From a virus, in the IMG/VR virus record IMGVR_UViG_3300027852_000176, positions 1-22,904 of that record: a stretch of 22,904 nucleotides of DNA. One strand, 5' to 3'. The stretch's first letter is position 1. Each line of letters begins with the position of its first letter. The notes under the pieces were generated by a model. That model made no database searches. It had not been told where the DNA came from and worked only from the letters and a program-made list of their open reading frames with translations. Positions 1-22,142 of the stretch are shown in pieces. Made by a program: the position numbers and the translations under genes.

Positions 1-171
1 CCTCAAGTGACCTCGGAACGGATGAATATTGCTCGGTATGCGGATTTACAGAACTTATATAACTACTTTAGACGCAAGATGATGGATAGATTGAAGCTAA
101 CTACTGTACAGGAGTGGAAAGAATGGCAAAAAGATCAACAATGTAGGGCTAATCTTCCCTCAGACCCCTAA
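1..171 (+). CDS. 3' end of an unrecognised protein
   Basis: An open frame enters from the left edge and ends at TAA 169-171, giving the last 56 residues of a plus-strand gene whose start lies outside the window. The visible part is charged and aromatic, with many Tyr, Arg, Lys, Trp and Gln residues (for example YNYFRRKMMD and EWKEWQKDQQ), and looks helical and soluble. I do not recognise the family. It converges on the ligase gene and overlaps its stop by 4 bases, so there is no room for a separate terminator between the two transcription units. The frame is open with plausible composition, but a 56-residue tail is weak evidence alone. Confidence 0.5.
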   Translation, partial: PQVTSERMNIARYADLQNLYNYFRRKMMDRLKLTTVQEWKEWQKDQQCRANLPSDP

Positions 172-2625: not shown

Positions 2626-5600
2626 ATGTCCGATATTACAGTTAATTCGTACAATTATATAGTAACTGTAACGGATGACGCTTACGAAGTAACTGTTACT
2701 TCTGAAGTACAGTTTGTGGTAGAGGCGACTGTGGCGACAGCTGGGCCTGGGGTTGATAGTACTGCAATCCATGATAATGTAGCTGGTGAGATCGATGCTA
2801 TTGATGAGAAGGTTGCTCCTGCTGATGCAGATGTGCTGATTATTGAGGATAGTGCTGATAGCGATAACAAAAAGAAGGTTCAGGTCGGAAATCTCCCAGG
2901 AGGCGCTGGCGGTGACCCAGACCAGAACCTCTATGAGACATTCGATGGCGATACTGGATCGACTACAGCTGATACTACTACCGATACTATGGTAGTTGAA
3001 GGCGGCGCTGGGATCGATACCACAGTTACCGATGATAAGATATCTATTGCACTATCTGATGAGATTTATACTACTGCTGACCATGATAAGTTAGATGGCA
3101 TTGCAGCTGGTGCTGAGGTTAATGTAGTAGATAGTGTGTTTGGGCGCACTGGGGACGTAGTTGCAACTAATGGAGATTATGATACAGATGAAGTGACCGA
3201 GGCAACCAATCTGTACTTTACTGAAGCTAGAGCTAATGCTGCGTCTGATGTAGTATCTAATACCGCACACCGGAATACTGTCACAGGAAATCCACATAGT
3301 CTGGACACAGACGATGTGTCTGAAGGTTCCTCCAACTTATATTATACGGAAGTACGAGTTAGTGCTAACACAGACGTGGCAGCTAATACTACTCACCGTG
3401 GCTTGACAAATAACCCCCATAGTGTCGATGAAACCGATATTTTACCGAGTCAGGCTACACACAATGGCAAGTTCCTAACAACTAATGGTACTGTAACTTC
3501 ATGGGATACGGTTACAAGTGGTGAAGTTAATACTGCCAGTAGTGCAGGCTCTGGTGTAAGTCTCTACTATCAAAAGTCCGCATATGATCTTCAATTCAAT
3601 GCTATCAAGAGCGAGAATGATCGACTTTCTATCTCGCTAGACGACGGAACCCATGATATTGAACTAACTGTGGTCGAAGGTAATATTGATCACGATGCCC
3701 TAGCTAATTTTGTAGCAGAGGAGCACGTTGACTGGGCAGGCGCCGCTGCCGGAACGATCCATACAGACAACTACATCGAAGGTGGCGCGGGCACTGATAC
3801 GACCGCGATCCATGATAACGAAGCGAGTGAGATTTCAGTCCTAAGTAATAAAGCTGTCCCGCATAGTAACGACTACCTGGTTATCGAAGACTCTGAAGCG
3901 GCCAACGTCAAGAAACATGTGTTAATAGGTAACTTGCCAACTGGTGGCGGAGGTGAAATTAACACGGCAAGCAGTGCTGGTACAGGCGTAAGTCTGTATT
4001 ATACAAAAGCTACGTATGATCTGCAATTCAATGCTATAAAGAGTGAAAACTCTATGATCGAGATAGCTCTTGATGGTGGTACTCATGATATAGAGTTAAC
4101 ACTACGTGATGATCTGATTACTCATCTGAACTCGTCTCTATCTACTGGCTTAGTTAAGATAACCACAGGTACTGGTCTTCTATCAACAGCTGTTGCTGGT
4201 ACGGACTACATAGTTAGTGAAGTTAATGATCTGAGTGGTGATGGTGTCGATAATATTGCAGATGACCAACTGGTAGTTGGTACAGGGGCTAATACAGCTG
4301 CCTATAAGACACTTGGTACCGGTGCTTTGAAATATGATACCTCTACCAATGAATTTACACAGGCCGCCGCTGCTGACTTATCTGACTTTGATACCGAGGT
4401 TAGTAATAATGCTACTGTGGACTTCCATAATGATGCCCTGAACTATGCGGCCAGTGCTCAGATTGTTACTGGAGGTGAGATTTCAGAAGGAACTAATGCT
4501 GGTACGATTAAGGTCGGAGCTGGCACAGCTTTACTAAGAGTAACCTCTGGTGAAACTGATCAGTTAGAGGAGGTTTCATTCTCTCTTACTGATAATATCA
4601 CCATCTCCGCTGCTGAGACTCTTCACTATATTGTTCTTACCTATACATCAACCTTATCTACAGAAACCACGAAGCCAAATGGCTACAATGCCATTGCACT
4701 TGGGCAGTGTATGAAGACAGCTAGTAACGATGTCCACTACCTACAAGGTGGCTATCGCTTACAGGATGGTGTTGCTAAGTCCCATCAGCACGCCAGAGCT
4801 TTGCATGGTATTGAAATTACCAGTGGTGGAGCAATCACAGATGAAGGATCTTTAGAGTTTAGCATAGCTGAAGTAATTGCGTGGGGTGGGCTCAACAGGA
4901 TGGTTGTGTTCTCCACACCTTTTGAAAGCAACCCAGACACCTTCACTTATTGTTACACGGTCAGCGGTACGTGGACCTACAACACTGCCCAAACTGCGCT
5001 GGACGATAACTCATACGATAACAACACTGCTGGTCCTGGTGGCACTATTGCATCTCAGCAGTACGGTGTGCATTGGATTTATATCCACCCTGGCGATGGC
5101 CATGTTTACGTTGTCTATGGTACAGACTCTTACACAGTAACTGAAGCAGAAGCTGTTCAACCACGAACTGATCTACCCTTGTTACTTCGTAGCTTCGGTG
5201 TTCTGCTGGCCAAGGTGATTATCAAAACTGGTGGAACTAGCTTCTACGCTATCCAGTATGTGACTGACACTGTGTTCAGTGGAACCAGCATACCAATTCA
5301 CGGCGATCTAAGTGGCTTAGACGCAGATGACCACACCCAGTACTTACTAGCTAATGGTACACGTGGCCTATCTGCCGATTGGGATGTTGGCGCACACAAG
5401 ATAACGGCTGAACAGTTTGAATCAGACATAGTCACTGGTACTGCGCCTTTCATTGTTGCGTCTACGACTGTGGTAGCTAACCTGAACGCTTCCACGCTGG
5501 AAGGCAACGCTGCTGCCGCCTTTGCGCCAGCGGCTGAGGGTGTAACCAACGGAAACACGCATGACCATGATGGCGGAGACGGTGGAACTGTAGACCACAC

Positions 5601-6687
5601 AAAGCTGAACAGCATTGGCACCAATACCCACGCTGAAATTGACACCCATATTGGTCTAGTCAATTCGCACTTGGATTGGTCCACGCCTAGTGTTGGCACT
5701 ATCCACACTACTAACTATATTGAAGGCGGCGCAGGCACAGATACTACAGCTATCCATGACAATGTGGATGCTGAGATTAGTGCTATTGCCGCAGAAACAA
5801 GTCCACAGTCCGGCGATGTATTGATTGTAGAGAGCGCTGGCGATTCATACTCCAAAAGACATGTGCAGATAGGAAATCTCCCAGCGGGTACTCCCGGTGT
5901 GGATTCAATTACGAATAGCCACTTGGCTAATATGGACGAGTCAAGGATTAAAGGTAGGGCTGCTGCTGCAGGTACTGAAGATCCGCAGGACTTGACTCCG
6001 GCCCAGGTGATGACGATACTTAGTCTGGACACTGACTTGACTACGTTGTCACTACCAGCCAGTACTACGATCAGCACATTTGGTGCATCGCTAATTGATG
6101 ATGCCACTGCTGGCGACGGTCGCACTACCTTGGGAGCAGCAGCTAGCGGAGCGAACAGCGACATTACTAGCTTGACCGGACTTACTACTCCACTATCAGT
6201 TGCCCAAGGTGGTTCGGGGCTGGCGTCATTTACTGCTGGCGACCTGCTCTATGCTACTGGAGCTACTACCCTTGCTAAACTGGCAAAAGGTACTAAATAT
6301 CAAGATCTTCGGATGAATAGCGGAGCAACTGCCCCTGAATGGTCAACTCGTGAGTATCGATTTGCTCATATTACGGTAGAGGACCCTGGGTCATCTGAAA
6401 AGATTGATATGGGCTATGTGAAAAATGCCATAACGATCACAGAAGTAAGGGCAGTGATTCAAGGAAGTACTAGTGTTACATGTGAGATTAAATATGGGTC
6501 TGATCTTTCTGCAGCTGGTAGTACACTAGCTGCTAGTACTGTGATTGATGACACTGGTGATGGCGAGGTTATGTCTATCTCAACTGCGGACATTTCGGCG
6601 GGGAATCGAATTTGGTTAGTGACATCGGCACTTAGCGGTACTCCAGATGAAGTCGGGATTACCATCTATGCAAAAGACAATGTCTAA
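2626..6687 (+). CDS. Large modular fibre protein (tail or head fibre)
   Basis: This 1353-residue Ser/Thr/Asp/Gly-rich protein is built from repeated beta modules. Three copies of a module end in NLPxG (residues 41-93, 369-440, 1017-1088). Two copies of a NTASSAGxGVSLYY module lie at 299-349 and 443-493, and two NLYFTEAR-type motifs near 193-202 and 237-244. Around 894-915 is a DLSGLDADDHTQY segment, and around 1187-1210 a TPLSVAQGGSGL segment, both widespread in phage fibres. A region rich in HxH and paired histidines (about 977-1008) recalls metal-binding trimeric fibres. Residues 618-890 form a non-repeated block. The C-terminal 110 residues are distinct and may bind the receptor. It has no signal peptide or membrane segment. 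Whether it sits on head or tail is open. Confidence 0.85.
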   Translation: MSDITVNSYNYIVTVTDDAYEVTVTSEVQFVVEATVATAGPGVDSTAIHDNVAGEIDAIDEKVAPADADVLIIEDSADSDNKKKVQVGNLPGGAGGDPDQNLYETFDGDTGSTTADTTTDTMVVEGGAGIDTTVTDDKISIALSDEIYTTADHDKLDGIAAGAEVNVVDSVFGRTGDVVATNGDYDTDEVTEATNLYFTEARANAASDVVSNTAHRNTVTGNPHSLDTDDVSEGSSNLYYTEVRVSANTDVAANTTHRGLTNNPHSVDETDILPSQATHNGKFLTTNGTVTSWDTVTSGEVNTASSAGSGVSLYYQKSAYDLQFNAIKSENDRLSISLDDGTHDIELTVVEGNIDHDALANFVAEEHVDWAGAAAGTIHTDNYIEGGAGTDTTAIHDNEASEISVLSNKAVPHSNDYLVIEDSEAANVKKHVLIGNLPTGGGGEINTASSAGTGVSLYYTKATYDLQFNAIKSENSMIEIALDGGTHDIELTLRDDLITHLNSSLSTGLVKITTGTGLLSTAVAGTDYIVSEVNDLSGDGVDNIADDQLVVGTGANTAAYKTLGTGALKYDTSTNEFTQAAAADLSDFDTEVSNNATVDFHNDALNYAASAQIVTGGEISEGTNAGTIKVGAGTALLRVTSGETDQLEEVSFSLTDNITISAAETLHYIVLTYTSTLSTETTKPNGYNAIALGQCMKTASNDVHYLQGGYRLQDGVAKSHQHARALHGIEITSGGAITDEGSLEFSIAEVIAWGGLNRMVVFSTPFESNPDTFTYCYTVSGTWTYNTAQTALDDNSYDNNTAGPGGTIASQQYGVHWIYIHPGDGHVYVVYGTDSYTVTEAEAVQPRTDLPLLLRSFGVLLAKVIIKTGGTSFYAIQYVTDTVFSGTSIPIHGDLSGLDADDHTQYLLANGTRGLSADWDVGAHKITAEQFESDIVTGTAPFIVASTTVVANLNASTLEGNAAAAFAPAAEGVTNGNTHDHDGGDGGTVDHTKLNSIGTNTHAEIDTHIGLVNSHLDWSTPSVGTIHTTNYIEGGAGTDTTAIHDNVDAEISAIAAETSPQSGDVLIVESAGDSYSKRHVQIGNLPAGTPGVDSITNSHLANMDESRIKGRAAAAGTEDPQDLTPAQVMTILSLDTDLTTLSLPASTTISTFGASLIDDATAGDGRTTLGAAASGANSDITSLTGLTTPLSVAQGGSGLASFTAGDLLYATGATTLAKLAKGTKYQDLRMNSGATAPEWSTREYRFAHITVEDPGSSEKIDMGYVKNAITITEVRAVIQGSTSVTCEIKYGSDLSAAGSTLAASTVIDDTGDGEVMSISTADISAGNRIWLVTSALSGTPDEVGITIYAKDNV
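2746..2904 (+). repeat. Fibre module A, copy 1
   Basis: This codes for residues 41-93 of the fibre. It opens with DSTAIHDN, has an acidic LIIEDSADSD core and ends VQVGNLPGG. The upstream GTIHT arm found in the other copies is absent. Similarity is clear at protein level and drifted at DNA level. Confidence 0.85.
3181..3378 (+). repeat. Tandem TEAR-type motifs in the fibre
   Basis: Two adjacent units, DTDEVTEATNLYFTEAR (3181-3231) and DTDDVSEGSSNLYYTEVR (3304-3357), are each followed by a short NxPHS spacer. The unit is a common trimeric phage-fibre motif. The copies differ by several substitutions and a one-residue insertion. Confidence 0.75.
3520..3672 (+). repeat. Fibre module B, copy 1
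   Basis: This codes for residues 299-349, from GEVNTASSAGSGVSLYY to THDIELTV. It is nearly collinear with copy 2 at 3952-4104 and of the same length (51 residues). Confidence 0.88.
3730..3945 (+). repeat. Fibre module A, copy 2
   Basis: This codes for residues 369-440, with GTIHTDNYIEGGAGTDTTAI near its start and IGNLPTG at its end. It shares a 30-residue N-terminal arm with copy 3 that copy 1 lacks. It directly precedes module B copy 2, so an A-B unit may have duplicated. Confidence 0.88.
3952..4104 (+). repeat. Fibre module B, copy 2
   Basis: This codes for residues 443-493, from GEINTASSAGTGVSLYY to THDIELTL. The central YDLQFNAIKSEN is identical to copy 1 at protein level, while the DNA differs at many third positions, so the duplication is not recent. 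Confidence 0.88.
5674..5889 (+). repeat. Fibre module A, copy 3
   Basis: This codes for residues 1017-1088. GTIHTTNYIEGGAGTDTTAI differs from copy 2 by a single residue. The acidic core reads LIVESAGD and the module ends QIGNLPAG. It lies about 580 residues beyond copy 2, separated by the non-repeated block. Confidence 0.88.
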
Positions 6688-9065: not shown

Positions 9066-10507
9066 CCAATCAGTTTAGTGAAGCATTAGATATGCTACAA
9101 AAGAGGGTTGATAACAAAGTACCCAATCAGTCAGGAACCATTGGAGTTACCAGTGTTCCTACCTATGGTGGATATATTACAAGTGCTGAGAAGAATGCTG
9201 ATCTGTCGGGTAGTCAGAAATATGTTACCTACTCAGAGATTCTAGCCAATGTTGGCATTATTGCAGCTGGAGTGAGGTATTTCCTCAACCTGGTAGCTAA
9301 AGCAAAATGGTCAGCCTCACCTGTGGATGACACTGAAGAGGCGCAAGAGGCTGCGGATTTTGTTCAAGATGTGATGGGAAACATGGATACTCCATGGCCT
9401 AGGGTTGTTCGACGCGCTGCAATGTATCGCTTCTATGGTTATAGTATCCAAGAATGGACCGCTAAGACTCGAGAAGATGGTAAAATTGGAATGCTTGACA
9501 TTGAACCTCGTGCTCAGTCCACAATCTCGAGGTGGGATGTTAATCAGCATGGTGATATTAAGACTATTTACCAGCAATCACCCCATGACTATCGGGAGAT
9601 TGCACTTCCCCGTGAGAAACTCATTTATGTAGTTGATGATAGTCTTAGTGATAGTCCAGAGGGGCTCGGATTATTCAGGCATATCACACCACATGCCAAG
9701 CGAGTGATGCGATATGAGCAACTCGAGGGTATTGGCTATGAGACTGATCTCCGAGGTGTTCCAATTGGTCGTGCACCGAAGGCCTTACTTCAAGCTGAAG
9801 TAGATAAGAATACTATGACGAAGGATGATATGGATGCGGCCCTACTTTCACTTGAAACCTTCATCCAAAATCACATTCGATCCGCTGATACGGGGTTAGT
9901 ACTTGATTCGTTAACTTATGCATCCCAAGATGAGCGTGGAATACCGAGTCCCGTGAAGCAGTGGGATCTTGAGTTAGTTAAGTCATCTTCCAGTTCATTG
10001 AAGGAACTTGGCAGTGCTATCGATAGACTTACTCACACCATTGCTATGATTATGGGAGTGGAGCAACTACTACTTGGTCGTGACTCACGGGGTTCCCATG
10101 CTTTGTCTGTGGATAAGACCCACAATTTCTACCTAGTGGTAGATTCAACTCTCACGGAGTTAACTGAGGCTTACCAAAAGGACTTTGTCGAGACCCTGTG
10201 GCAATTAAATGGGTTTGACGACAAGTTAAAGCCAACGCTAACACCAGAGACGATTAGATTCCAGAATATCACGGAGATTACGTCAGCACTTGCTGATCTG
10301 TCAAAGGCTGGTGCAAAACTCTCACCTGCTGATCCTGTGATTAATGAGATTCGTGAACTACTTGGGTTAGTGAGAGTGCCAGAGGAACTTATTAACCAAA
10401 TGATAACTGATATAACTGAACCACCAAACGTACAACCTGACACTGACGAAAACTCCGAAGATAACGACGAGGAGGAGTCCGATGTCACTGACAGTCGGGA
10501 CGAATAG
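9062..10507 (+). CDS. Portal protein, possibly DUF935/Mu gp29-like
   Basis: This 481-residue protein forms the dodecameric ring at the capsid vertex through which DNA enters and leaves. Support is its position immediately after terL, its length, and family-like segments: ILANVGIIAAGVRYFLNLV (about 60-78), RRAAMYRFYGYSIQEWT (about 117-133), a KLIYVVDDSLSDSPEGLG crown-side strand (about 185-202), and MGVEQLLLGRDSRGSHALS (about 330-348), which resembles the clip-to-stem end of DUF935/Mu gp29-type portals. The C-terminal 25 residues are highly acidic. The start is GTG at 9062, overlapping the terminase stop. The portal call is strong; the exact subfamily is less sure. Confidence 0.9.
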   Translation: MTNQFSEALDMLQKRVDNKVPNQSGTIGVTSVPTYGGYITSAEKNADLSGSQKYVTYSEILANVGIIAAGVRYFLNLVAKAKWSASPVDDTEEAQEAADFVQDVMGNMDTPWPRVVRRAAMYRFYGYSIQEWTAKTREDGKIGMLDIEPRAQSTISRWDVNQHGDIKTIYQQSPHDYREIALPREKLIYVVDDSLSDSPEGLGLFRHITPHAKRVMRYEQLEGIGYETDLRGVPIGRAPKALLQAEVDKNTMTKDDMDAALLSLETFIQNHIRSADTGLVLDSLTYASQDERGIPSPVKQWDLELVKSSSSSLKELGSAIDRLTHTIAMIMGVEQLLLGRDSRGSHALSVDKTHNFYLVVDSTLTELTEAYQKDFVETLWQLNGFDDKLKPTLTPETIRFQNITEITSALADLSKAGAKLSPADPVINEIRELLGLVRVPEELINQMITDITEPPNVQPDTDENSEDNDEEESDVTDSRDE

Positions 10508-11523: not shown

Positions 11524-12105
11524 ATGCCGCATAAAAGGAAAGGTCTGAACTACCTGCACGACAGCGATCTCATTCTGCCAAAGATCGATGGTTTGCAGCT
11601 AGCATCTGGCCCCGCCGTTACTGCAGCTGTTGGTACCGCGAAGAACGGTACACTTGGGTATTTTGAATACTCAGTGCAGGATACCGACTTTACAGTAGTT
11701 GATTCGGGAGCCAATGGTGGAGCTCTTGCAGTTACGCTATTTACGTGGCCAGCTGCGATGATCTGGGTTGTTGGTAGTCTGCTAGAAGTAAGCGTTAGTG
11801 CAGCTGCTGCAGGTATTGGAGCTACAGGTAACATCAATATAGGTGTTGGTAGTGTAGCTTACGTTGCTGATGGTAGTGATCCTGCAACTACTGAGATTGA
11901 TTTCCTAGCTTCGCTTATGGACTTTACGCTAGTTGGTGGAATCAAGGCCGATCAGCGTAAAGAAGGCGCAGCTGCTGGGTATCGTGATGCTACCGCTGGA
12001 ACTGTGAAGGCCTATCTGAATTTCTATGTTCCCGCTGCTGATATCTCTGCTGATGCTGCACTTACAGCTGATGTCGATTTTAGGTGCTGGTACTTCACAT
12101 TGTAG
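11524..12105 (+). CDS. Unknown Ala/Gly-rich beta protein, probable virion component
   Basis: This 193-residue protein has a short basic N-terminus (MPHKRKG) followed by an Ala-, Gly-, Thr- and Val-rich beta sequence. Segments are GYFEYSVQDTDFTVVDSGAN (about 45-64), TGNINIGVGSVAYVADGSD (about 100-118) and a YLNFYVPAADISADAAL stretch (about 164-180) that ends WYFTL. There is no signal peptide. Composition, the strong promoter and ribosome site, and position beside capsid genes suggest an abundant structural protein, perhaps a head decoration or fibre protein. I recognise no named family. It is not obviously related to the two DUF2190-like proteins further on, although it shares their small-residue richness. 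Confidence 0.7.
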   Translation: MPHKRKGLNYLHDSDLILPKIDGLQLASGPAVTAAVGTAKNGTLGYFEYSVQDTDFTVVDSGANGGALAVTLFTWPAAMIWVVGSLLEVSVSAAAAGIGATGNINIGVGSVAYVADGSDPATTEIDFLASLMDFTLVGGIKADQRKEGAAAGYRDATAGTVKAYLNFYVPAADISADAALTADVDFRCWYFTL

Positions 12106-12118
12106 GCTGGAGGTCCTA

Positions 12119-13273
12119 ATGTCTGAGCGTACATTTAGGCCACCGAAGCTAGTACGAAAGGCAGCACAGGCTGGATTGGTGCTTGGTAGTCGTCATCAAT
12201 TGGATGATAATTCAGCTGTTGCTCAGGCTGAGACCTTGTTGTCTACAACCCCCCTTTCACTACTGGAGATCAGGGCGCTACATACATCACTTACAAGACT
12301 ACATGCCGACTATGACCCACATCTCTCAAAGCATGATCGACCCACAGATGGAACAATCAAGTGGCTATTATGTGGTGGAGATGAAGGTTTGATATGGACC
12401 CGCAGAGTCTTACGTCAAGAGAAGGTCTTAAAGACCAATTCTGGGAAGATACAAATTCCGGAGATTATTGACTTAAGATTTGGACCACATATCATGGTAG
12501 CACATGTAAGTGATACGGATGTGGTAGCTAAGCTTCAGACTCTTGAAATACCAGCCGGAGTAAGCCAAACTCATGATGGCTCATTTATCTTCTTCACACC
12601 TACAGTATCTGTGATTCCTGTGGAGAAGGTAGTAAGTAAGCGAGGTACATATGCACTTGGGCAGCCAGCTCAACTACCGGCGATTGATTGTGAGAGTTTG
12701 ACCTTTGTAGATGAGAGTCGATCACGAGTTCAGGTACTTCTTAAGGGTCTACAGAATCCCACAGACGTCTCTGGGTTTGATTGTTTTGAATTTGATCGTG
12801 CTCATTATGCCGGTCTAACTGGCAAAACTCTTCTAGAAGGGCTTACCGTTAACAAACTCTTCTGCTTGATTAGCACAGAGTCTCCGAGATACAGAGCTGA
12901 ATTCCTCAAAGTTGATGAAGAGCTTGGGCTTGTCATGGGATGGGCCATTATTAGTCTTGCTAATGGTGAGCCTTACTTTGATAAGCAGGGTGACTATATT
13001 CCAGAGAACTCAATGCTTGAGGCTGCAACTGAGTTTATGCTGAATAGTCGCATTGCAGGTGATATGCATGATGGTGATAGTCATGGTAGGATTGTTTTTG
13101 CCTGGCCTATGACCACTGAGATTGCCAAGGCTTTTGAGTTCGATGTCTCAACAACTGGCTTAATGATTGCTATGAAGCCAGACAATGAAGAGATGCTTGA
13201 GAAATTTAGGGATGGCACCTATACCGGGTTTTCTATTGGTGGTACCCGCATTGAGGATGAGGAGGTTGATTGA
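12119..13273 (+). CDS. Prohead maturation protease, XkdF-like, with N-terminal extension
   Basis: The C-terminal third (about 255-378 of 384) carries the XkdF-type phage serine protease pattern. A DKQGD motif (288-292) is followed by a helix, then GDMHDG with probable catalytic His317, a GRIVFAW strand (323-329) and TGFSIGG with probable nucleophile Ser372. The protease cleaves scaffold and capsid arms during head maturation. The first 240 or so residues are an extension of unknown function with TIKWLLCGGDEGLIWTRRVL (79-98), unlike usual compact proteases. I chose ATG 12119 because GGAGG precedes it; the longer frame from 12026 overlaps the previous gene and gives a non-protein-like start. 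The TGATG junction couples it to the scaffold gene. Confidence 0.82.
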   Translation: MSERTFRPPKLVRKAAQAGLVLGSRHQLDDNSAVAQAETLLSTTPLSLLEIRALHTSLTRLHADYDPHLSKHDRPTDGTIKWLLCGGDEGLIWTRRVLRQEKVLKTNSGKIQIPEIIDLRFGPHIMVAHVSDTDVVAKLQTLEIPAGVSQTHDGSFIFFTPTVSVIPVEKVVSKRGTYALGQPAQLPAIDCESLTFVDESRSRVQVLLKGLQNPTDVSGFDCFEFDRAHYAGLTGKTLLEGLTVNKLFCLISTESPRYRAEFLKVDEELGLVMGWAIISLANGEPYFDKQGDYIPENSMLEAATEFMLNSRIAGDMHDGDSHGRIVFAWPMTTEIAKAFEFDVSTTGLMIAMKPDNEEMLEKFRDGTYTGFSIGGTRIEDEEVD

Positions 13274-14340
13274 TGTCAAAAAAGAAGATCATGCGCCGAT
13301 TCCGAATTAGGGAGATTAGTGGCGTAGACACTCCCGCTCAGGAAGGTGCTGAGAAAGTCATTATGAAGCGAGATAATCCTGAGTATGCTAAGACCCTGTT
13401 TAATGAGGCACTCGAGGATCTCCAGCTTGAGGCAAAGGTAAATGATGCTTTGATGGATATGTGGCAACTAGACTCTGCTCTAAGCCGCAGTATTCGAGAG
13501 ATCATTGAAGATGATGAGGAATACCCAGACACAATGGCCGCTATTAAAGAATCACTCCAGCAATTTGCAGCTGCGGTGTCTACAACAGTCGCCGGTGTTT
13601 TGGACGGTGTTAAAGACAACCAGGACCCTGATAATAAGGAGACTACTATGACTGAGGAAGAAAAGAAGGCTGCCCTTGAAAAGGAAGCCCTCGAAAAGGC
13701 AGCTGCCGATGAAAAGAAGGTGCTGGAAGCCCGTGTGGCTAAGGCCGAATCGATCAACGCGCTGGCTGCTGATGACAAAGCCCACTATGATACACTCGCT
13801 GAGGCCGGCCAAGATGAATGGCTCGCAAAGAGTGCCGATGATCGTACCGCGTTTCTGAAGAATCTTGCAGATGAAAACGCCATCATCTACACCGCTGAAG
13901 ATGGTAGCGAGTACCGCAAGAGTGATGATCCGCGCTTGGTAGCCATGGCAAAGAAAGCCGATGAGGAGACCAAGGCCGCTAATGTCGACCGTGCAGCTCG
14001 TGAGGACACTGAGTTTGCTAAGCGTGCTGATGCAGAACTCAAGCATCTGCCTGGTGAGCAAGATGTGAAGGTAGCGATTCTGAAGGCGCTTGAGACCATC
14101 AGTGACGAGACCACTCGCAAGGCTGCGACTGAAATGATCCATGCCAGCAATGCTGATATGTCCAAGGCTATGGATCGCATCGGAACCACCGGCGAAGATA
14201 CCAGCGGTCCTAAGGGCAAGCTGAATGCGCTGGCGAAGAAGCATCAGGAGGCCAATGAGGGCATGTCCTTCGAGAAGGCCTATACTGAAGTGATTACAAC
14301 CGACGAGGGTAAGGCTCTGTACAACCAGACCCAAGCTTAA
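13273..14340 (+). CDS. Scaffold/prohead core protein, long form
   Basis: This 355-residue, highly charged and mostly helical protein opens with MRRFRIREISGVDTPAQEGA, a pattern common in phage proteins next to XkdF-type proteases. A helical acidic part follows, then a Lys/Glu/Ala-rich coiled segment (about 126-160) and a charged C-terminal half. Scaffold proteins template capsid assembly and are then removed. The ATG overlaps the protease stop (TGATG) behind GAGGAGG. A TTG three bases earlier is a less likely start. An internal ribosome site and ATG at 13648 would make a shorter scaffold from the same frame. The N-terminal 125 residues may tether the core to portal, protease or shell. Confidence 0.8.
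   Translation: MSKKKIMRRFRIREISGVDTPAQEGAEKVIMKRDNPEYAKTLFNEALEDLQLEAKVNDALMDMWQLDSALSRSIREIIEDDEEYPDTMAAIKESLQQFAAAVSTTVAGVLDGVKDNQDPDNKETTMTEEEKKAALEKEALEKAAADEKKVLEARVAKAESINALAADDKAHYDTLAEAGQDEWLAKSADDRTAFLKNLADENAIIYTAEDGSEYRKSDDPRLVAMAKKADEETKAANVDRAAREDTEFAKRADAELKHLPGEQDVKVAILKALETISDETTRKAATEMIHASNADMSKAMDRIGTTGEDTSGPKGKLNALAKKHQEANEGMSFEKAYTEVITTDEGKALYNQTQA
13636..13641 (+). promoter_or_regulatory. Internal ribosome binding site for the short scaffold
   Basis: A perfect AAGGAG lies 6 bases before the in-frame ATG 13648-13650, inside the scaffold gene. It matches the sites used by the neighbouring capsid genes in strength and spacing, and falls exactly at the boundary between the N-terminal domain and the coiled scaffold region. 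Confidence 0.72.
13648..14340 (+). CDS. Nested scaffolding protein, short form
   Basis: Translation from ATG 13648 gives 230 residues in the same frame as the long protein. The product begins with a Lys/Glu/Ala-rich, coiled-coil-like segment (MTEEEKKAALEKEALEKAAA) and continues with charged helical regions typical of scaffolds. Codon choice also shifts here: the nested part uses more GCC, AAG, CTG and ATC, like the decoration and capsid genes that follow, while the upstream part resembles the protease gene. A protease or core protein sharing its C-terminus with a nested scaffold is established in phage lambda (C/Nu3). The case here is inferred from sequence signals. Confidence 0.68.
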   Translation: MTEEEKKAALEKEALEKAAADEKKVLEARVAKAESINALAADDKAHYDTLAEAGQDEWLAKSADDRTAFLKNLADENAIIYTAEDGSEYRKSDDPRLVAMAKKADEETKAANVDRAAREDTEFAKRADAELKHLPGEQDVKVAILKALETISDETTRKAATEMIHASNADMSKAMDRIGTTGEDTSGPKGKLNALAKKHQEANEGMSFEKAYTEVITTDEGKALYNQTQA

Positions 14341-14383: not shown

Positions 14384-14755
14384 ATGTCTGTGGAACAAGC
14401 TCTGACAAATGTGACTTTTCCGTCTAATGCGGATTTGTCAGCTGGTCAGTACAAGTTCGTAACCATCAATTCTAGCCACAAGATCGCTCTCGTAGCTGCT
14501 GCTGGTGGTGCTGGGATTGGTGTGTTGCAGAATGACCCAGCAGCTGCTGACCGTGAGGCGGTAGTTGCTGTCTACGGGGTGAGTCGTGTGCTTGCTGGTG
14601 GTACAGTAGCAACTGGTAATACTGTTCAGTCAGACGCAAATGGCGATGCCATTGTTGCCGCTTCTGGTGATGCAGTGTTTGGCACTTGTGTTCGTGGCGG
14701 CGTAGATGGTGATTACATCTTGGTGCTACTCAACAGCCAGTTCGTACTGCCGTAA
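14384..14755 (+). CDS. Capsid decoration protein, DUF2190-like, copy 1
   Basis: This 123-residue, Ala/Gly/Val-rich protein has the order seen in DUF2190-type capsid cement proteins: an early strand pair with NADLSAGQYKFVTI, a GAGIGVLQNDPAAADREAVVAV segment split by short turns (about 42-63), YGVSRVLAGGTVATGNTVQS (about 64-83), and a closing FGTCVRGGVDGDYILVLL region. Such proteins bind the outer shell after expansion and stabilise it. A strong AAGGAG precedes it. It is followed 15 bases on by a clear paralogue. It sits between scaffold and capsid genes, where decoration genes are common. Confidence 0.83.
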   Translation: MSVEQALTNVTFPSNADLSAGQYKFVTINSSHKIALVAAAGGAGIGVLQNDPAAADREAVVAVYGVSRVLAGGTVATGNTVQSDANGDAIVAASGDAVFGTCVRGGVDGDYILVLLNSQFVLP

Positions 14756-14770
14756 CCGAAGGAGATACTC

Positions 14771-15151
14771 ATGTCTGCTGTGGAAAGAGGTCTTAGGACC
14801 GTAACAATTCCGTCAGGCTCGGATCTCTCCGCAATTCAGTACCACTTTGTCGATGTCGATAGTGGTGGGCAGATCATCATTCCAACTGCAGCGGGAGCCA
14901 AAGCAATTGGCGTATTACAGAATACACCCGCTGCTGCCGATGCCGATGCTATCATCGGTATCTCTGGTATTTCCAGTGTTGTTGCTGGCGGTACTATTGC
15001 AGCCGGGGCATTAGTGCAGGCTGGAGCTGATGGAACTGCTCTTGCAGTTGCTAGTGGTGATTATGCCCTAGGGACTGCTGTTACTGGTGGTGCTATTGGA
15101 GATATTCTTGAGGTTCTTCTTCTTGGTGGTGCTGGAAACATCACTGCATAG
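14771..15151 (+). CDS. Capsid decoration protein, DUF2190-like, copy 2
   Basis: This 126-residue paralogue of the preceding gene is collinear throughout. The two share the S-x-LSAxQYxFV start, the GVLQNxPAAAD core, GxSxVxAGGTxAxGxxVQ and the closing GTxVxGGxxGDxxxVLL. AAGGAG lies 6 bases before the ATG, in the same layout as copy 1. The C-terminus is slightly longer and Gly-rich. Protein similarity is strong but DNA identity looks modest, so the duplication is old and both copies appear maintained. The two may form mixed trimers or occupy different sites on the shell. Confidence 0.83.
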   Translation: MSAVERGLRTVTIPSGSDLSAIQYHFVDVDSGGQIIIPTAAGAKAIGVLQNTPAAADADAIIGISGISSVVAGGTIAAGALVQAGADGTALAVASGDYALGTAVTGGAIGDILEVLLLGGAGNITA

Positions 15152-17567: not shown

Positions 17568-17576
17568 GAGGAGATG

Positions 17577-19055
17577 ATGAGTAGAGTATCCACAAATACT
17601 ATCTCAATTGCTTATGCGATTGAAGCTAGTTTAGCCACTCTGCCTGGCACGCCTCAGTGGAAACTGATTGAGCCGAATGAGATCAATACGTTCGGACCGA
17701 CAATCAGTACTGTGGCTCGTAACCCGATTGCCAAAGATCGACAACGAAAGAAAGGTACTATCACCGATCTCGATAGTGCTGTGGAATTCAATGCCGACTT
17801 AACTGGCGATCATATCACAGACTTCTTTAACGGCTTCATGTTTGCTGAATGGACTGGTGGAGGAGTATGGGGCGAATATGAGACTGAGGATGTCACTGCT
17901 GTCACTGCTACTGGATACACTGTTACAGATGATGGTGACTTAGCAGCTGATGAATTGATCTATGCTAGGGGCTTTACCAACTCAGCTAATAATGGGCTGA
18001 AGGTTGTTGGGGCCGCTAGTACCACCACAGAAATCAAAGTCAGTGGCCTTGTGGTAGAGGCTGCACCGCCCGATGAGGCGCGGATTGAGATTGCTGGTGT
18101 TCAAGGTGCAACTGGTGACCTGGAGATTGATGCTAGTGGCGATTTGATCAGCACGGTGCTTGATCTATCAGCACTTGGTCTGACGGTTGGACAAGTAATC
18201 TGGGTTGGCGGTTCAACTACAGTTACTCAGTTTGCTGTCGCTGCTAATACAGGCTTTGCTAGGATTACTGCCATTGCAGCAGCTAAGCTTACACTTGATA
18301 AGACTGCTGCTACATTTACAATTGACAATGGTGCTACTAAGACCATCCAAATCTTGTTTGGTAGGTTCTTAAGGAATGTACCTGTGGATGATGGGGACTT
18401 CCTCGAACAGAGTTATCAGTTTGAAGCTACGTACCCAGACCTTGACTCTGTCGGGGTTGATGAGTATGAGTATGCTAAGGGTAACTACTGTAATCAGCTT
18501 GTCTTGAACTTACCCCTCTCAGACAAGGCAACATGTGACTTTGGGTTCACTGGTACTGATACTGAGCCGCCGTCAACTAACAGAGATGCTGAGAGTGCCA
18601 ATGCAATTGACCCGATTCAGACTGAGGCGTTTAATACCTCAGCTGACATTGCTCGACTCAGGATTACACAGACCGATGAGACTGAGTTAACCAGCTACTT
18701 CAAAACTCTAACTCTGACTGTCAATAACAATGTGACTCCAGAGAAGGTACTTGCAAATCTGGGCGCTGTCTTTATGAACATCGGTAACTTCGATATCACT
18801 ATCGAAGCTCAGGTACTCTTTACTGATTCTGGTATTCCGACTGCCATTCGGAATAACACCACATTGACTATGGACTTTAGCTTGGAGAACAGTGACGGGG
18901 GTCTGTTCTTCGACTTCCCTGCTATCACTATTGGTGGCGGAGACAAAGAATACCCCGAGAACGAGACGGTGTTGATGAATACTCCAGCGTCGGCCTTTGA
19001 AGATCCGACACTTGGCTATTCGCTCAGCATCTCTCACTTCCCATACCTGCCTTAG
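17577..19055 (+). CDS. Major tail tube protein
   Basis: This protein of 492 residues polymerises into the tail tube. The N-terminal part (SIAYAIEASLATLPGTPQW, then NTFGPTISTVARNPIAKDRQ, about 10-55) and DLDSAVEFNADLTGDHITDF (about 62-81) follow the pattern of long siphophage tube proteins. A Gly/Ala/Thr-rich inserted region (about 95-260), with strands such as FARITAIAAAKLTLDK, probably forms an extra Ig-like surface domain. The tube core resumes with YQFEATYPDLDSVGVDEYEY and YFKTLTLTVNNNVTPEK. It is longer than minimal tube proteins (often 150-250 residues). ATGs at 17574 and 17577 both follow AGGAGGAG; the second is better spaced. No sheath gene accompanies it. Confidence 0.86.
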   Translation: MSRVSTNTISIAYAIEASLATLPGTPQWKLIEPNEINTFGPTISTVARNPIAKDRQRKKGTITDLDSAVEFNADLTGDHITDFFNGFMFAEWTGGGVWGEYETEDVTAVTATGYTVTDDGDLAADELIYARGFTNSANNGLKVVGAASTTTEIKVSGLVVEAAPPDEARIEIAGVQGATGDLEIDASGDLISTVLDLSALGLTVGQVIWVGGSTTVTQFAVAANTGFARITAIAAAKLTLDKTAATFTIDNGATKTIQILFGRFLRNVPVDDGDFLEQSYQFEATYPDLDSVGVDEYEYAKGNYCNQLVLNLPLSDKATCDFGFTGTDTEPPSTNRDAESANAIDPIQTEAFNTSADIARLRITQTDETELTSYFKTLTLTVNNNVTPEKVLANLGAVFMNIGNFDITIEAQVLFTDSGIPTAIRNNTTLTMDFSLENSDGGLFFDFPAITIGGGDKEYPENETVLMNTPASAFEDPTLGYSLSISHFPYLP

Positions 19056-19076: not shown

Positions 19077-19511
19077 ATGAGTAAGTTTCGCATCGACATT
19101 CAAATGGCGAAGGTGGTAGACTTTACACTCTTTGCTTTAGAGGGTGAACCAGTTCTCCAACTTGCCCAGGCTACTGAGGCCAATAAGCCATACTTCAATG
19201 GTATACTTCGTCGTAGCCGCAGAAACATGCCACAAGTTAAAGCTGGTAATATCAACGTAGACTTGGTTATAAGTAATCGAGCTAATGATCGAGAGCTCTA
19301 TGCCAAGTACGTTCTTCAAGGCTGGCAGAATGTGGTTGACATGAATGGTAAAGCTGTACCATTCTCTGAAGCCGAAGCTCTTGAATTTCTTCAGGCGATT
19401 CCCAGTTTCATCTTTGATGAGATTAGAGAATTCGCTGCCGAACCACGGAACTTCATTCTCGAAGAACTGCCTGAGGCCGAGGAAATAGCAAAAAACTTGC
19501 AGAGCGACTAA
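19077..19511 (+). CDS. Tail assembly chaperone, short form (G-like)
   Basis: This 144-residue product is the unshifted form of the chaperone that coats the tape measure during tail assembly. Position (between tube and tape measure), a short N-terminal strand, a central helical segment with ANDRELYAKYVLQGWQNVVD (about 63-82), and SEAEALEFLQAIPSFIFDEI (about 98-117) fit G-like chaperones. AAGGAG is 8 bases before the ATG. The last codons contain the slippery heptamer A AAA AAC in the correct phase, so a minority of ribosomes would extend it to the GT form. Termination is at TAA 19509-19511. Confidence 0.85.
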   Translation: MSKFRIDIQMAKVVDFTLFALEGEPVLQLAQATEANKPYFNGILRRSRRNMPQVKAGNINVDLVISNRANDRELYAKYVLQGWQNVVDMNGKAVPFSEAEALEFLQAIPSFIFDEIREFAAEPRNFILEELPEAEEIAKNLQSD

Positions 19512-19825
19512 GGTGGGAGCTGGAGTGGAATGAAAAAGGGTTTGTTGCATCAGCTGCAATTGCACGGGGACAATCCATCCCTACATGGCTTGATGCAGAA
19601 CCCATTCTTGCTCCAGGCGAAGACTTCTATCTTAGCGCTTTTTGGGAGCTTAGTACATGCCGAGCTATGGGTATGTCAATTGGCCCAATTCCGTGGCAGC
19701 ACATTATTGCTTACGCGGAGTGGGCGGAACTGGACTATGACTTGCGTGGAATCTTCGTGTTAGTCATGCGAGCTATGGACAGTACCTATCTTGAGTGGCT
19801 GAATCGAAAGGCAAAAAATGGCTGA
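19077..19825 (+). CDS. Tail assembly chaperone, frameshifted long form (GT-like)
   Basis: After a -1 slip at 19490-19496, translation would continue from 19496 in the -1 frame to TGA 19823-19825, giving a product of about 249 residues (140 from the first frame, then 109). The second part has no start codon of its own near its beginning, so it is easily missed. Its sequence (SIPTWLDAEPILAPGEDFYL, then IGPIPWQHIIAYAEWAELDY and MRAMDSTYLEW) looks like a true T domain, which links the tape measure to the tube protein. It overlaps the tape measure start by 8 bases. Conserved G/GT frameshifting is known in lambda and most siphophages. Confidence 0.87.
19490..19496 (+). other. Programmed -1 frameshift site
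   Basis: The heptamer A AAA AAC has the zero-frame split of an X XXY YYZ slippery site (codons GCA AAA AAC). It sits 15 bases before the zero-frame stop codon, in the G/GT position. A GAGGA (about 19479-19483) lies about 6-7 bases upstream and might act as a Shine-Dalgarno-like stimulator. I see no convincing downstream pseudoknot by eye. Confidence 0.87.
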
Positions 19826-22142
19826 CTTTCGTATTCGAGTCTTAGTTGATCCACGACAAGGACAACGTGGAATCAAGTCAATGAAGAGATCCCTCGGCGG
19901 ATTGGAGCGTCAGGGTAAAAGTGTTGGTAGGGCCTTTAAGGGAATGATGGTCTTTGCAGGACTGGGTGCTGGTCTTCGTGCTATCACTCAACTTGCTGAC
20001 CGATTTACCCACCTGCAAAATCGTCTTAAGACAGTGACAGCCTCAGAAGATGAATTAACGGCTGTAACTAATAGACTATTTGAAGTGGCGAATAAAACTC
20101 GTGCGCCATTCAAAGCTACAGCAGAGATCTATACTCGTGTAGCTTTGGCGAGTAGAGAGTTGCAGACCTCTCAAGAACAATTAGTCCAATTTACAGAATC
20201 ATTGAACAAGGCAGTGATTCTTTCTGGTGCAACCGCTCAAGAGGCTGAGGCTGGTATGCTTCAGCTATCACAGGGCCTTGCTTCTGGCTCTCTTCGTGGC
20301 GAAGAGCTCAGGTCTGTACTTGAGCAGATCCCTGTGGTAGCTGATGTAATTGCTAACTCGATTGGGACCACTCGTGGTGAACTTCGTAAGATGGGTGAGC
20401 GAGGTGAAATTAGTGCGAAGATGGTTCTACAAGCTTTCAAAGAAGCTCGAGTAGAATTGGATGAGAGATTTGGGGAAACCATCCCAACCATTGACCAGGC
20501 ATTCACAATCTTACGAAATAGTATTACCAAAGCTGTAGGTGAATTTAATAAGGGATCAGGAGCTGCTAATAACTTTGCTGATTTCATTATTAAACTAAGT
20601 AGCTATACTGACGAACTAACTGAGGGGCTTTATATTGTTGGTGACGTAGTTAAAGCTACTTTTGAGGCCTTTAAGACCCTATTAGAGCCCATGACTAAAC
20701 AACTTGACGACTGGGGAGTTGACTGGGGTGATGTTTTTACAGCTGCAGGACTAGCAGTATTAGTGCTATTACAGATTATTGCACAGGTCTTTGATAAGAT
20801 CATTGGTTTAGTAACTGCGTTAGTTTCAATTATAACTGTTAATTTCAAACAGATTCCCAGAGTTATGGGTGATGCTCTAGTCACGGCTTTTAATCACATG
20901 ATTACTATGACTGAGACTTCGGTTAATCGGGTTATCAAATTGATTAACTTTCTTAATAGTCAACTACCCAAGAACCTGCGAAAAGAACCTCTAGCAGAGG
21001 TTAGTATGTTGAGACTAGACAATAAGTTTGAGGGGGAGGCGAAAAAAACCGGGGCAATGATTGCAGAACTTCTCAAAGCTGGGATGGAGCAAAGTGCCCT
21101 CGAAGATGCAATTGTTGGAATTATTGAATCCGTAATGGATAGCGCTGCTGAACGAAAGGGTCAGCGATCAGATCCTGATATAGATTTAAGTAAGGGAGTT
21201 GCTGGAGGAACTGGGGTTATACCAGGTGAAACTCTTTTTGAAAAATTTATGGCTGACTTAGCTCTTCAAGCTAAGCTACTGGGGATGACTGCTAAAGCCG
21301 CTGAAATATATGAGACTAAGCTAAAGGCTGTCAAAGAGATTGGTCGTGAGCTTACTGATGTTGAAGCTGATCGGGTCACTGTAGCTGTACAACTTATTCA
21401 ATCCATGAGGGATCAAGCCAGAGTACTAGATGAGATTATAGGTCCATATAATGAGATCACTGATAAGCAAGCTGCCTTAAATGAACTACTGTGGATGGGG
21501 CGGATTAACACCGAACAATACACTGAAGCTATGAGAAAGCTTCATCTTGAAATGCTTGAGCTAGCTACAGACCTTGATACAGGCTATGCTCGTGGTATAG
21601 CTAGAGTTCATGAGCAACTTCTCGATCTTGCAACACTCTCAGAGTCTGTGGTAGTTGATGCATTCAATGGAGCTGAGCAGGCTATTGTCGACTTCGTTAC
21701 CACTGGTACAGCAAATCTGAAACAATTTGTGGATCAGGTCCTAGCTGACCTAACTCGAATCTTGGTACGGAAAGCTATGATGAGTTTGATTGGCGCATTT
21801 GCTGGAAACCCAGTCCCAGGTGACCCTGGTTTTATAGGGCCAGTTGGAGGAGGACACGGGTATCAAACCGGGGGATCTTTCAATGTTGGCGGATCAGGAG
21901 GTCCTGACAGTCAACTGGTTGCGTTTAAGGCAACTCCGGGCGAACGAGTTGACGTATCACGACCGGGACAAAACCCAGCAGCAATGAGTCAAGCACCACA
22001 GCAACCAGCTCAGGTAAAGATTATTAACTCAATGGATCCAGGAATGGCTCTTGATGCAATGAATACAGCTGAGGGTGAGCGATTGATTATGAATGTAATC
22101 CAACGTAACCCTAATAGTGTTCGTCGGATGATGGGAGGATAG
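19818..22142 (+). CDS. Tape measure protein
   Basis: This 774-residue protein sets tail length, fills the tail tube before ejection and helps DNA delivery. The N-terminal tape-measure domain (about 45-230) includes ITQLADRFTHLQNRLKTVTA, LSQGLASGSLRGEELRSVLE and IGTTRGELRKMGERGEISAK. A hydrophobic stretch at about 304-340 (LAVLVLLQIIAQVFDKII and following) is a likely membrane-active segment. The part from about 585 to 658 (with DAFNGAEQAIVDFVTTGTA) matches the lambda-type tape measure C-terminal domain. A Gly/Pro-rich tail with GERVDVS follows. At roughly 0.15 nm per residue the tail would be near 115 nm. The start overlaps the chaperone's shifted frame. Confidence 0.94.
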   Translation: MADFRIRVLVDPRQGQRGIKSMKRSLGGLERQGKSVGRAFKGMMVFAGLGAGLRAITQLADRFTHLQNRLKTVTASEDELTAVTNRLFEVANKTRAPFKATAEIYTRVALASRELQTSQEQLVQFTESLNKAVILSGATAQEAEAGMLQLSQGLASGSLRGEELRSVLEQIPVVADVIANSIGTTRGELRKMGERGEISAKMVLQAFKEARVELDERFGETIPTIDQAFTILRNSITKAVGEFNKGSGAANNFADFIIKLSSYTDELTEGLYIVGDVVKATFEAFKTLLEPMTKQLDDWGVDWGDVFTAAGLAVLVLLQIIAQVFDKIIGLVTALVSIITVNFKQIPRVMGDALVTAFNHMITMTETSVNRVIKLINFLNSQLPKNLRKEPLAEVSMLRLDNKFEGEAKKTGAMIAELLKAGMEQSALEDAIVGIIESVMDSAAERKGQRSDPDIDLSKGVAGGTGVIPGETLFEKFMADLALQAKLLGMTAKAAEIYETKLKAVKEIGRELTDVEADRVTVAVQLIQSMRDQARVLDEIIGPYNEITDKQAALNELLWMGRINTEQYTEAMRKLHLEMLELATDLDTGYARGIARVHEQLLDLATLSESVVVDAFNGAEQAIVDFVTTGTANLKQFVDQVLADLTRILVRKAMMSLIGAFAGNPVPGDPGFIGPVGGGHGYQTGGSFNVGGSGGPDSQLVAFKATPGERVDVSRPGQNPAAMSQAPQQPAQVKIINSMDPGMALDAMNTAEGERLIMNVIQRNPNSVRRMMGG

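Follow-up and report, generated by a model that had tools for sequence, protein, structure and literature searches.

A lambda-type tail chaperone frameshift site with a putative long-range stem whose far strand differs in place between phage lineages

The DNA analysed here, referred to as the window (22,904 nt), is a complete IMG/VR virus record. Two tail assembly chaperone frames, G and T, lie in it between the tail tube gene and the ATG of the tape measure gene at 19818 (Table 1), and both are assigned to known chaperone families (PHROG 313, 3817, and 8233, the last also matched by T; PF23812). G is 45% identical to its homologue in RDJL Phi 2 over the full length. Its stop codon, TAA at 19509-19511, stands 12 nt after a slippery heptamer, and the G frame reads GCA AAA AAC TTG CAG AGC GAC TAA at this place, with A AAA AAC in phase for a -1 slip, just as the first-pass annotation of this DNA had stated.

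From 19475 on, the -1 frame contains no stop codon before its TGA at 19823-19825, and it overlaps the tape measure ATG. The same annotation had described 109 open codons leading to the tape measure start, which was confirmed, and the encoded protein belongs to tail chaperone families. The predicted GT fusion is 249 aa long. A CTG in GAGCTGGAG, directly past the G stop, was considered as a start for T and rejected, the same codon being CTT in locus L005 and CTC in locus L004. In the 0 frame, an ORF at 19530-19763 (77 aa) has no PHROG match, and the openness of this frame past the G stop is inconsistent among relatives.

Table 1. Features of the chaperone locus and its neighbours in the window; distances with a plus sign are counted in nucleotides after the heptamer.
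Feature	Position	Strand	Evidence
Tail tube protein gene, adjoins G on its upstream side	17574..19055	+	PF18906 Phage_tube_2, E 6e-35
G-like tail assembly chaperone gene, 0 frame, 144 aa	19077..19511	+	PHROG 313, E 2.6e-13
SD-like GAGGA, 6 nt upstream of the heptamer	19479..19483	+	Anti-SD energy peak
Slippery heptamer A AAA AAC, in phase for -1	19490..19496	+	Direct reading; conserved in relatives
T extension, -1 frame, 109 codons and TGA	19496..19825	+	PHROG 3817 (tail chaperonin), E 1.6e-25; PF23812 Phage_TAC_18, E 1.3e-14
Putative stem, 5' strand, +5 to +22, includes the G stop codon	19501..19518	+	MFE fold
Loop of the stem, 106 nt, predicted to fold internally	19519..19624	+	MFE folds
Putative stem, 3' strand, +129 to +145	19625..19641	+	Pair probabilities; synonymous-recoding test
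Tape measure protein gene, start overlaps the T end	19818..22142	+	PHROG 3336, E 8.3e-128; PF20155 TMP_3

Heptamers of the form X XXY YYZ, counted with AAA or TTT as YYY, occupy 5 of the 6538 in-phase positions in the 21 genes of the window, and only the one at 19490-19496 lies near a gene end. Two further slippery heptamers elsewhere in the window were recorded, namely an in-phase AAAAAAG at 13278-13284, 8 nt into a frame with a TTG start at 13270, and an in-phase GGGAAAC at 9376-9382 within the portal gene.

Relatives were collected by homologue searches with two alignments (A2 and A3); a third (A1) was too diverse for searching, and the window T used as a single query against viral contigs gave no matches. 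The named relatives include the Roseobacter phages RDJL Phi 1, 2, and 6, the Pseudomonas phages RSP and KPP23, and the Shewanella phage S0112, to which Septimatrevirus and others are added for T. Both G and T were detected at 83 non-identical loci, one of which is that of the window; T lies in the -1 frame at every one of them, and 80 of the 83 have an in-phase heptamer near the G stop. Near-identical loci were only partly removed, and effective sample numbers are for this reason below the counts stated here and below. Whether relatives keep the heptamer had been set beforehand as a check on the frameshift, and they do so in one of two main forms: at 79 sites (duplicates removed, two loci added to the earlier set), A AAA AAC occurs 37 times, G GGA AAC 39 times, and G GGA AA(A/G/T) 3 times. 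Exchanging A AAA AAC for G GGA AAC, or the reverse, swaps Lys-Asn and Gly-Asn: one amino acid differs, and the site stays slippery. A second search yielded 38 additional loci, for which presence of a heptamer was the selection criterion; about ten other T homologues had no heptamer under the pattern used. In three close relatives (L050, L093, and L104), T is in the -1 frame but the G end, which in L093 reads CTG GGG GAA GCC TAG, lacks the standard heptamer; these may possibly have another slip site or a sequence error.

The expectation that a standard gene caller would miss the second half of the pair is matched by GenBank records of relatives. T has no gene call in RDJL Phi 1, RDJL Phi 2, R6L, and ZS04, and is covered by a truncated gene in RSP and S0112. 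A joined-gene annotation is found in the Rhodobacter phages RcMotherGoose, RcSimone-Hastad, and RcRudolph, as well as in KL1.

The GAGGA that had been pointed out just upstream of the heptamer is present. Over 75 loci, the anti-SD energy has its maximum at this position and exceeds that of synonymous controls (z -3.9); among 38 more distant loci, the signal is not significant (z -1.0 against synonymous controls). GAGGA is regarded here as a probable SD-like stimulator in the window's subfamily.

The heptamer, the open and homologous T frame, and the missing T start are plain features of the DNA, and the reading of the locus as a tail chaperone G/GT pair expressed through a -1 slip at A AAA AAC is strongly supported. 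This kind of site is already known, being the classic lambda-type G/GT -1 ribosomal frameshift. What appears to be new is a conserved long-range stem past the slip site, whose far strand stands at a lineage-dependent distance.

The first-pass annotation had seen no clear structure downstream of the heptamer, a statement that holds for local folds and fails at longer range; the structure was missed because the stem is long-range. Folds of the window that extend up to 130 nt past the heptamer give no signal (z -1.0 to +1.4), whereas a 150-nt fold, a length arrived at after several had been tried, reaches -58.4 kcal/mol (z -3.1 against synonymous recoding) and contains a long basal stem. This stem has 17 pairs and a single bulged A at 19507. 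In five sequence contexts, most of its pairs have a probability of 0.8-1.0, with the outermost pairs weaker, and it reaches P = 0.005 against synonymous permutation with the partner limited to +124..+151.

The paired strands are conserved in the window clade, which consists of the window and eight relatives and has a summed energy 8.6 sd below the null (0/1000). Seven of these nine loci individually reach P < 0.01, the other two being L108 (P 0.10) and L004 (P 0.49). The latter (2878-3034), a near relative with G GGA AAC, has no stem at the far-strand place usual in the clade (z 0.0). When near strands and far strands of the clade are combined in a matrix, each strand's own partner is the best or almost the best, L004 excepted. 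A count over alignment columns found 4 pairs with both sides changed, a covariation equalled in 5 of 500 shuffles, and all slid versions scored lower. Covariation in this clade is modest, partly because the bulge position and the register vary by 1-3 nt.

In relatives, folding past the heptamer is unexpected under both dinucleotide-shuffle and synonymous-codon nulls. In an anchored scan, the pairing of each 14-nt strand with the next 150 nt was compared with synonymous permutations, which preserve the protein and the codon content. Over 73 loci, the scan gave a single narrow maximum, with a mean z of -2.09 +/- 0.16 for the strand +7 to +20. Through overlapping strands z declines to about -0.6, and beyond about +30 it is mostly between 0 and -0.4. 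Repeated on the 38 loci found later, the scan gave -2.02 +/- 0.23 with an unchanged peak position. Keeping the near strand and permuting the rest, or vice versa, gave z -1.3 +/- 0.1 each. The spacing that is kept among relatives is that of the near strand, which starts +5 to +8 after the slip site.

The far strand, by contrast, ends at different places. Its end lies at about +60 in one group, at +84 in the RDJL group, at +98 to +112 in other loci, at +117 to +119 in Septimatrevirus-like phages and KL1, and at +145 to +148 in the window relatives L108, L061, L063, L005, L033, and L067, as well as in L009. In KL1 and Pseudomonas phage 73, +5..19 can pair with +104..119, and in L152 (z -3.5) and L136 (z -2.4) the far strand perhaps lies as far out as about +190 nt. 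On a tree of T proteins, which is poorly resolved, the far-strand positions cluster: they require 26 changes, compared with 38.7 after shuffling, and none of 200 shuffles was as low. Repeated moves are needed all the same. Two sets of loci with a far strand at about +60 have 95% and 92% of their cells paired and both-side changes in 4 of 7 and 5 of 8 pairs, with a covariation score reached by 0/500 shuffles; these sets were chosen for a common register, and their P values are those of selected stretches. The anchored scan, its repeat, and the arm-swap test are independent of the selection of length and register. Because the far strand differs between lineages, no single stem register was found across the whole family. 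Where the first outer stem lies in MFE folds was uninformative, and Rfam gave no gathering-score match in 8 loci, the window region (L001) among them.

Tail chaperone -1 slipping is textbook knowledge, and the G/GT frameshift of lambda was reportedly described in work by Levin in 1993 and Xu in 2004. The lambda system has also been reviewed (PMC5009743). In tail chaperone pairs of this type, GT is expected at a few percent of the amount of G. The window shares with lambda the order tail tube, G, T, tape measure, the in-phase heptamer near the G end, and a start-less T in the -1 frame. The lambda heptamer, however, is G GGA AAG, and the stem belongs to the window family with its A AAA AAC or G GGA AAC: lambda, tested as a positive control for long-range pairing, was negative (z -0.4), and such a stem is therefore not generally required for G/GT-type slipping. 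A related chaperone pair is found in KL1 and Septimatrevirus. For gp18/gp19 of Burkholderia phage KL1, G GGA AAC was predicted as a -1 site and 35 nt downstream were folded (PMC3483164), whereas the far strand of the pairing described above for KL1 lies beyond that span. Predicted hairpins have been reported for some phage clusters (PMC4066793), and slipping was measured at 6-7% in a HK97-like cluster (PMC3711429). In the openly accessible literature, no earlier account of a long-range or relocating stem at tail chaperone slip sites was found.

Outside tail genes, E. coli dnaX offers a likeness in its A-rich heptamer and its stem a few nucleotides downstream, and probably in its SD, which in dnaX-type sites lies about 10 nt upstream; the stem start at about 5-8 nt past the heptamer, characteristic of dnaX-type sites, was also found here. 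The two differ in the heptamer (A AAA AAG in dnaX), in the stem, which is a compact hairpin in dnaX and encloses a 106-nt loop in the window, and in the product of the slip, which is a shorter protein in dnaX and a longer one in the window. The branched stems of IS911 and the IS3 family likewise have a basal stem, beginning a few nucleotides past the heptamer, around additional folded RNA, but they are stimulators in transposase genes of mobile elements, and their likeness to the window is one of layout only. To our knowledge, IS911/IS3-family stimulators are not known to have a closing strand that moves between relatives.

Several accounts compete with ribosomal slipping at a three-part site, and those that dispense with it altogether fare worst. 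It is hardly conceivable that T has a start of its own as a separate gene, or that a sequencing error caused the frame break: some GenBank records do show a separate downstream gene, but the -1 frame has no ATG, GTG, or TTG before 19667, which already lies in the TAC_18 domain, an early start is likewise missing in many relatives, and the frame break is common to about 100 different contigs and phage records. It is highly improbable that GT arises from RNA polymerase slippage on an A6 run and not on ribosomes. The window does have a run of six A, yet in about half of the relatives the site is GGGAAAC, a canonical tandem-slip sequence with no such run.

The remaining accounts concern the stem. 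An ordinary lambda-type slip driven by the heptamer alone, or together with the SD-like sequence, would leave no part for long-range pairing; lambda itself slips without such a stem, L004 is without it, and almost half of the loci individually have no clear stem (one with z below -1.5 is seen in 60 of 113). Against this stands the anchoring of the pairing at one heptamer-relative place over 111 loci, together with its persistence under the protein-aware null, the arm-swap test, and the covariation counts, and we consider a slip without participation of the stem unlikely. The stem could also be real and serve another role, either masking internal T starts or coupling translation of G/GT to the tape measure gene. 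In the window its near strand spans the G stop codon, and its far strand shifts between lineages, both of which would suit such a role. The conserved spacing, however, is to the slip site (+5 to +8) and comes near that usual for 3' frameshift stimulators (6-9 nt past the slip site; PMC5009743), whereas the distance to the stop codon ranges from 0 to 39 nt. A different function of the stem is on these grounds quite unlikely. The preferred reading, a lambda-type recoding site made of a heptamer, a long-range stem that sets a pause, and an SD-like helper, is very probably correct.

At such a three-part site, the majority of ribosomes would complete G, and a minority, pausing with A AAA AAC in the P and A sites, would shift back by one base and produce GT; we infer from the sequence both that this slip occurs and that it is confined to a minority. 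The long-range mRNA stem would set the pause, its near strand 5-8 nt past the heptamer being placed at the mRNA entry of the ribosome and its far strand lying within T, about 130 nt downstream in the window phage, and the upstream GAGGA would probably assist slipping. By analogy with lambda, G would coat the tape measure protein, and the T domain of GT would recruit tail tube subunits (PMC5009743). For the family as a whole, we think it likely that the stimulator has its near strand fixed 5-8 nt past the slip site and a far strand that has been relocated repeatedly, between about +40 and +150, within T. If this is true, standard searches, which span 35-80 nt, overlook a relocating long-range stimulator.

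Few recoding events are as widespread as tail chaperone frameshifts, and for many of these no downstream stimulator is known. Should the stem act as proposed, many such sites have a stimulator that is invisible to local folding, and recoding sites should be searched for differently. The family also forms a natural series in which the near strand and its spacing are constant and the loop goes from short to more than 100 nt, so that the feature of a stimulator sensed by the ribosome can be probed directly.

Some further features of the window lie upstream of the tail genes. An open frame of 1353 aa at 2626-6687, between a small-terminase-like gene upstream and the large terminase downstream, has neither a PHROG nor a Pfam match. 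The open frames at 11524-12105 and 12026-13273 overlap by 80 nt in different frames, and the second carries a Peptidase_S78_2-like domain at its end. Finally, the adjoining genes at 14384-14755 and 14771-15151 both match PHROG 673 (head scaffolding) and are probably a tandem duplication.
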